Shown: positions 9,173 to 9,569 of the stretch, piece after piece | Position numbering within the stretch: the first letter of the stretch is position 1 | How the letters are laid out: each line of letters opens with the position of its first letter | Assembly: GCA_017391905.1 (NCBI GenBank) | Contig: JAFOWX010000108.1 | Coordinates: 1-45,848 of the forward strand | Direction of reading: 5' to 3' | Length of the DNA: 45,848 nt | Source: Paludibacteraceae bacterium | Lineage (GTDB): Bacteria > Bacteroidota > Bacteroidia > Bacteroidales > Paludibacteraceae | Made by a program: the position numbers and the translations under genes | The notes under the pieces: generated by a model | What the model saw: only the letters and a program-made list of their open reading frames with translations | Told to the model about the DNA's origin: nothing | Database searches by the model: none

Positions 9173-9186
9173 TGTTCTGCTTTTTT

Positions 9187-9490
9187 GCCCTTTAGGGCCA
9201 GCGCTCTTCAGAGCGCCGTGCCGTAGGCACGTTATATAAAATGGTATAGGCTCTATAAAAAAAAATCGCACCCGATAGGGTGCTTTTTTGCCTTTTAGGG
9301 CCAGCGCTCTTCAGAGCGCCGTGCCGTAGGCACGTTATTATAAACGGTATAGGCTCTATAAAAAAATCGCACCCGATAGGGTGCTTTTCGCCCTTTAGGG
9401 CCAGCGCTCTTCAGAGCGCCGTGCCGTAGGCACGTTATTATAAACGGTATAGGCTCTATAAAAAAAATCGCACCCGATAGGGTGCTTTTT
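9187..9490. repeat. Three tandem composite-hairpin units of about 100 bp
   Basis: Units start at 9187, 9290 and 9390 (periods 103 and 100) and are nearly identical. Each contains, in order, GCCCTTTAGGGC, GCGCTCTTCAGAGCGC, CGTGCCGTAGGCACG, TATAGGCTCTATA and a terminator-like GCACCC-GATA-GGGTGC flanked by A- and T-runs. Differences are confined to the linker (TATAAAATGG versus TTATAAACGG), A-run length and one base of the first arm. The last unit's terminator doubles as the tRNA-Thr terminator. No open frame of note is present. Confidence 0.9.
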
Positions 9491-9500
9491 TTATAGAGCC
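9452..9500 (-). terminator. Bidirectional terminator of tRNA-Thr
   Basis: GCACCC (9470-9475) and GGGTGC (9480-9485) form a stem extended by GGCTCTATAAAAAAA on the left and TTTTTTTATAGAGCC on the right. The right arm includes the tRNA 3' end, so the full inverted repeat spans nearly 50 bp. Confidence 0.8.
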
Positions 9501-9569
9501 TCTCATGGGACTCGAACCCACGACCTACTCATTACGAATGAGTTGCTCTACCAACTGAGCTAAAGAGGC
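9497..9569 (-). tRNA. tRNA-Thr (anticodon CGT)
   Basis: 73-nt cloverleaf. Acceptor arms GCCTCTT and GAGAGGC pair, the D-arm has AGCTCAGTTGGTAGAGC, the anticodon stem ACTCA/TGAGT encloses TTCGTAA (anticodon CGT, reads ACG), and the T-arm is GTGGGTTCGAGTCCCAT. The discriminator base is T and CCA is not encoded. Confidence 0.94.

Follow-up and report, generated by a model that had tools for sequence, protein, structure and literature searches.

REP, BIME and REPIN elements are short, dispersed intergenic palindromes that are often clustered, show covariation between the arms of their hairpins and lie downstream of genes, with some copies inside genes. The repeat described here, which we call X, shares these features, but it adds a locus-specific inverted copy of its flank and is also found at gene starts and at the ends of stable RNAs. 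CGTC-type REPs, including the Rickettsia palindromic elements, are like X in lacking a dedicated transposase and in being able to sit within genes, whereas tandem units that carry a copy of the neighbor's sequence, as in X, are not described in the part of that source on which we draw (PMC3733652). MITEs are likewise small, non-coding, dispersed and presumably non-autonomous; in contrast, X has two unlike ends and no established target-site duplication, and its flank copy is inverted rather than direct. To our knowledge, known insertion mechanisms produce direct target-site duplications or none. Quasipalindrome mutation by template switching resembles the X loci in its perfect inverted copies, arm homogenization and spacer inversion (PMC8604942; PMC7202029), but the copies at X are tied to one repeat family and to one of its ends and consist of 13–25 new nucleotides. 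Finally, bidirectional intrinsic terminators located after tRNA genes have the A-tract, G+C hairpin and T-tract seen in the units below, but only in the presence of X does the stem continue into the sequence of the mature tRNA. Among open-access PMC papers, we found no account of gene-specific inverted copies on such a repeat.

A three-unit array joined to tRNA-Thr

The window, by which we mean the whole stretch of 45,848 nucleotides of Paludibacteraceae contig JAFOWX010000108.1 that was analyzed, carries the array at positions 9187–9490. Direct copies of 86 nt start at 9178, 9281 and 9381 (spacing 103 and 100, 90–94% identity), in agreement with the initial annotation, which had described three near-identical tandem units of about 100 bp; every palindrome that it listed is present. 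Each unit contains, in order, hairpins hp1 (GCCYTTTAGGGC), hp2 (GCGCTCTTCAGAGCGC) and hp3 (CGTGCCGTAGGCACG), an AT linker with a terminal YGGTAT, a segment g (AGGCTCTATAAAAAAA), the hairpin GCACCC-GATA-GGGTGC and a T-run. Unit 1 (9187–9289, plus strand, as are all three) matches the core model R2 at 9199–9235 with 50.4 bits and is composed of hp1 (9187–9198), hp2 (9201–9216), hp3 (9217–9231), the linker (9232–9247), g, which is a copy of the tRNA-Thr 3′ end (9248–9263), and the terminator hairpin with its A-tract and T-tract (9268–9289). The corresponding parts of unit 2 (9290–9388; R2 match 9302–9338) are located at 9290–9301, 9304–9319, 9320–9334, 9335–9350, 9351–9366 and 9369–9388, and those of unit 3 (9390–9492; R2 match 9402–9438) at 9390–9401, 9404–9419, 9420–9434, 9435–9450, 9451–9466 and 9470–9492. 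By sequence and predicted fold, each unit thus has a G+C-rich hairpin followed by a T-run, as expected for an intrinsic terminator and as had been proposed. The further suggestion that intact arms accompany changes in loops and linkers has no basis inside the window, where the arms are near-identical among the units and hairpin 1 of unit 2 is made weaker by a C-to-T substitution (GCCTTTTAGGGC); the evidence that arms are maintained is confined to copies found elsewhere.

The gene for tRNA-Thr (CGT), identified by both ARAGORN and Rfam, lies at 9496–9569 on the minus strand, and its 3′ end is copied in every unit. The g segment of unit 3 (AGGCTCTATAAAAAAA) matches, at every position, the reverse complement of 9486–9501, which comprise the tRNA 3′ end and trailer. 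The result is a gene-specific dyad at 9451–9501, assigned to neither strand, in which g (9451–9466) pairs with g′ (9486–9501) at 16 of 16 positions, encloses GCACCC-GATA-GGGTGC, spans about 50 nt overall and shares, in its right arm, the terminal 6 nt of the tRNA-Thr gene as annotated. The junction of the last unit with the tRNA-Thr 3′ end through an inverted repeat of about 50 nt was therefore confirmed. The identical tRNA-derived piece is present in units 1 and 2, though there is no tRNA downstream of them. Folding calculations gave z = −10.8 for single-stranded DNA (0 of 100 shuffles as stable) and z = −8.0 for minus-strand RNA including the tRNA (0 of 200 shuffles as stable). In the predicted fold, the dyad 3′ of tRNA genes forms a 22-bp terminator-like stem that extends into the acceptor strand, with the cloverleaf as a competitor.

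Elsewhere in the window, a scrambled tRNA-like remnant is present at 2512–2587 on the minus strand, approximately 50–120 nt downstream of a real gene, tRNA-Lys (2634–2707). From tRNA-Lys it repeats 15 nt of the 3′ end in direct orientation (GTGATCCGCCTGTGG) and 15 nt of the T-arm region in inverted orientation (GGGTCTTGGGTTCGA). A comparable broken tRNA adjoins X at locus L021 in genome G007.

A genus-restricted palindromic repeat

We denote the core in the orientation of the window (hp1-hp2-hp3-linker) as X′ and its complement as X. The repeat consists of two DNA hairpins whose arms covary strictly, a third hairpin that is variable, and an AT-rich linker; its ends are unlike each other, and its far-side junctions have diverged. 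In its own genome (G000, a 1.61-Mb draft in 149 contigs), the core also occurs at tRNA-Arg(CCT) on two contigs, at tmRNA and at tRNA-Leu(GAG). A first covariance model, built from these own-genome copies, detected X in 10 of the 16 genomes of the genus, all of which are draft ruminant-gut MAGs; the second model, R2, added G004 (weakly) and many further copies, with 26 matches in G001 and 16 in G013, bringing the count to 11 of 16. With R2 and stricter filters, the family's 32 other genera gave no match in the genomes sampled. Among named genomes, two Paludibacteraceae MAGs, from sheep and cattle colon, were matched in a pattern scan. The pattern match L020 was discarded as a coding false positive.

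Copies of X adjoin the 3′ ends of tRNA, tmRNA and 5S rRNA genes as well as the ends and starts of protein genes, and they lie in frame inside two open reading frames. The RNA-gene neighbors are tRNA-Thr, -Arg, -Leu, -Lys, -Gln, -Ala, -Cys and -His, tmRNA and 5S rRNA, of which 5S rRNA and tRNA-Gln were assigned by sequence. Copied protein-gene ends include era, trigger factor, aroE and outer-membrane genes, and copied starts include clpP, dapB, fabD, skp-like, ugd-like and phoU-like genes, the names being readings of the translations. The core is found on both strands relative to the neighboring gene, one way downstream of genes and the other way upstream of or within them. A read-through insulator, which needs a far-side gene aimed at X, was rejected on account of the mixed far-side orientations.

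Several loci have a more complex structure. At the tmRNA locus of G003 (L077), a full palindrome X′-g-terminator-g′-X lies upstream of another X′ unit beside tmRNA, so that both orientations are present. In the tandem arrays L070, L085, L090 and L059, hp1 is a degenerate copy of the adjacent tRNA terminator hairpin, sometimes with its loop reverse-complemented. A second palindromic family (GTCATCCTGA...AAGGATCT...CAGCATGAC) is present in an intergenic region of G013 (L212) and in the L046 upstream region, and it occupies an intergenic site where a sister species carries X.

Across copies, the arms change in a compensatory manner. In 15 hand-chosen copies, 97.6% of cells were paired, with 26 double changes and no single-sided ones. 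In 88 copies (71 distinct), 99.2% were paired, with 125 double changes, compared with 13–65% in slid controls; this percentage is biased upward, as the alignment was fitted to the model. G-U pairs, which the model permits, made up only 2 of 755 cells. The loop of hp2 is conserved (TTCT or TTCA, that is TTCW), and its stem is variable. The near-absence of G-U pairs fits a DNA-level process better than selection on RNA, and the concerted change of the arms almost without such pairs points to a process of this kind, for example foldback or template-switch synthesis. The stable conserved hairpins, the compensatory changes and the terminator-like end are what three copies of a structured small RNA would show, but the core occurs in both orientations to genes, is Watson-Crick only, and has a gene-specific 3′ part, and the only Rfam matches in the window were two tRNAs, with no family for the units. 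This interpretation, offered in the initial annotation, is thus not supported, and we regard it as highly improbable.

Inverted copies of flanking DNA

On the linker side of X′, g is the reverse complement of a nearby flank, differs from locus to locus and is 13–25 nt long. Among 55 copies, the best linker-side dyad had a median arm score of 16 and a score of at least 13 in 46; the median was 7 on the other side of X′ and also 7, with a 99th percentile of 11, at randomly placed positions of these loci. About nine of the 55 copies have no clear dyad (for example, L058, L091, L101 and L109). A mirrored dyad on both sides of X was clear only in L087 and is not general. Because the core adjoins about ten kinds of RNA genes and many protein genes, usually with an inverted copy of the locus's own sequence, the earlier proposal that the array may have originated from the terminator of the tRNA is too narrow.

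Eleven of 14 upstream copies match the start of their own gene over 13–18 nt, against a mean of 8.8 for the starts of other genes, which rules out a coincidence of AT-rich sequence. In eleven upstream cases the start codon (ATG) lies within the copy. Between g and the start codon there are 31–36 nt in eight upstream cases (L046, L057, L079, L082, L084, L100, L103 and L105) and 65–70 nt in three. A local CAAGGA/TCCTTG hairpin around g is a possible competitor of g/g′ pairing. The spacer is semi-conserved, with the motif TNGCANAATAT, which, when reversed, we take to resemble the Bacteroidetes −7 box. The oddly uniform gap and the semi-conserved spacer hint at something functional, or carried by the element itself, that would not be predicted from simple foldback. 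An invertible promoter, suggested by the reversed TATTYTGC-like motif in the spacer, appears improbable, as 31–36 bp is very short for known invertases.

The dyad is found together with X. In tRNAs without X, no dyad reached more than 3 nt into the gene, and seven exceptional tRNAs with a dyad had a truncated or degenerate X on inspection. Dyad scores of at least 12 were found at the stops of 8 of 13 genes with X versus 7 of 423 without, and at the starts of 10 of 12 genes with X versus 5 of 284 without; several of the exceptional protein genes (L063, L231, L171 and L075) carry a variant or truncated X. Moreover, seven empty sites could be polarized, outgroups included: L087/L212, trigger factor, L079/L222, L089/L217, fabD, skp and dapB. 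At L087 in G001, there is an arm of 20 bp after the stop codon; the counterpart gene end in G013 is 98% identical and has no dyad, as is the case in two more distant relatives. The trigger-factor end is filled in G013 (L046) and empty in G001, G003 and G004; for dapB, the filled sites are those of G001, G002 and G003, and the empty ones those of G013 and more distant relatives; and at L079, L089, L100 and L057 one species has a filled site where others have an empty one. The empty skp site of G001 contains a possible hp4 relic. Since orthologues without X in the seven polarized cases also lack the dyad, the copy arises with X, from flanking DNA, and a pre-existing dyad as the target is ruled out by the same empty sites and outgroups. 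Thus, a templated inverted copy, linked to X, appears in polarized gains; a perfect copy of 16–20 bp cannot plausibly have arisen through point mutations.

Units and flanks also change together between species. The Thr trailer TCTATA of G000 goes with TATAGA in each of the three units, and the trailer TCGATA of G007 with TATCGA in both units. The Ala copy is CCACTAAG in G013 and CCACAAAG in G001, in both units of each (CTAAG/CAAAG), and the Arg trailer varies between species (CGAAC, CAAAC and CAAG), with g′ changing alongside. That distal units follow the trailer fits either homogenization by copying or independent gains after speciation. At L059, the terminator hairpins differ in their loops, the distal one being the reverse complement of the proximal one. 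Template switching between arms homogenizes the arms and inverts spacers (PMC8604942), and such a spacer inversion would give the loop seen at L059.

Origin and significance of the copies

On sequence comparison, the array is probably a three-fold tandem expansion of X, a short, genus-restricted, non-coding palindromic repeat of the REP/MITE kind that carries an inverted flank copy made by DNA synthesis. The copy would be made on the arrival or replication of X: the 3′ end next to X may fold back or switch template onto the flank 0–70 nt away, copy 13–25 nt and then rejoin X. Repeated rounds could yield tandem units, with the arms homogenized by the same process; we infer both the order of events and the role of a polymerase. 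As a side effect at 3′ ends, the g/g′ stem with the T-rich linker, or an A/T-tract hairpin, likely forms a putative gene-specific intrinsic terminator, and near start codons the copy could mask the ATG in transcripts entering from upstream. We put forward, as a tentative reading held at somewhat less than even odds, a repeat class that propagates by DNA synthesis, writes an inverted copy of the target flank as a rule, and on insertion builds gene-specific terminators and start-codon hairpins.

The dyads could instead be selected regulatory hairpins, acting at 3′ ends as terminators made to measure and at 5′ ends as switches that mask the start codon, with X as a transcript-stabilizing string of hairpins. 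In favor of this, the g/g′ stem is directly next to a T-rich linker or overlies an A/T-tract hairpin, the fold is very stable, eleven upstream copies include the start codon with CAAGGA/TCCTTG as a potential competitor, and the arms are matched between species. However, perfect arms of 16–20 bp occur only with X and in none of the sister or outgroup orthologues, the core is almost devoid of G-U pairs, and distal tandem units co-vary with the gene even though the hairpin does not need them. The main reason for preferring a copying mechanism is L089, where X′ and its copy follow the second codon of a U32-peptidase-like gene without breaking the frame and the product reads MQ-(about 45 residues)-FEIMAPVG, versus MQYEIMAPVG in G013. 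The DNA copied there consists of ordinary coding codons, and gene function thus did not choose the copied stretch. A second in-frame copy, with a dyad of 7 bp, is located in the pbpC-like gene at L074. Selection for regulatory hairpins consequently appears unlikely as the origin of the copies.

Somewhat less probable still is a mobile element with a REP/RAYT-like, hairpin-recognizing transposase or recombinase acting at gene boundaries, where the copy would result from strand transfer and repair. X has the dispersed palindromes with covarying arms that characterize REPs, its insertion is strand-independent, the palindromes are strictly of DNA type with the conserved hp2 loop, and its in-frame copies recall the REPs reported within genes (PMC3733652). 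Inspection of the copies, however, revealed no GTAG at the palindrome foot (it occurs in hairpin loops of some copies) and no CGTC at either end, and the RAYT domain (Y1_Tnp, PF01797) had no match in the draft genomes G000, G001, G003, G007 and G013, its matches being confined to G006 and G010, where copies of X are few. Mobilization by a RAYT was rejected on the basis of this absence from the drafts of the own genome and its X-rich relatives. Chimeric foldbacks formed during library preparation or assembly have to be considered, given that all genomes are draft MAGs and two contigs end inside an array; against this, the same dyads recur at the same loci in several independent MAGs (tRNA-Arg/tRNA-Thr in G000, G007 and G009; tRNA-Ala in G001, G003 and G013). 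They invariably adjoin X, and both of their arms bear substitutions specific to the species; we consider an artefact scarcely credible.

X has so far been found only in one genus of gut bacteria. It resembles known repeats (REPs, CGTC repeats and MITEs), but there is a real chance that it uses a new insertion mechanism, and its copying of neighboring DNA points to an unusual route. If true, a reproducible arrival with an inverted locus-specific copy would represent a distinct insertion route, by foldback or template switching, in natural bacterial genomes, for the study of which the X loci provide a natural record with polarized gains. In addition, terminators and initiation-masking hairpins fitted to individual genes may have a one-step origin.
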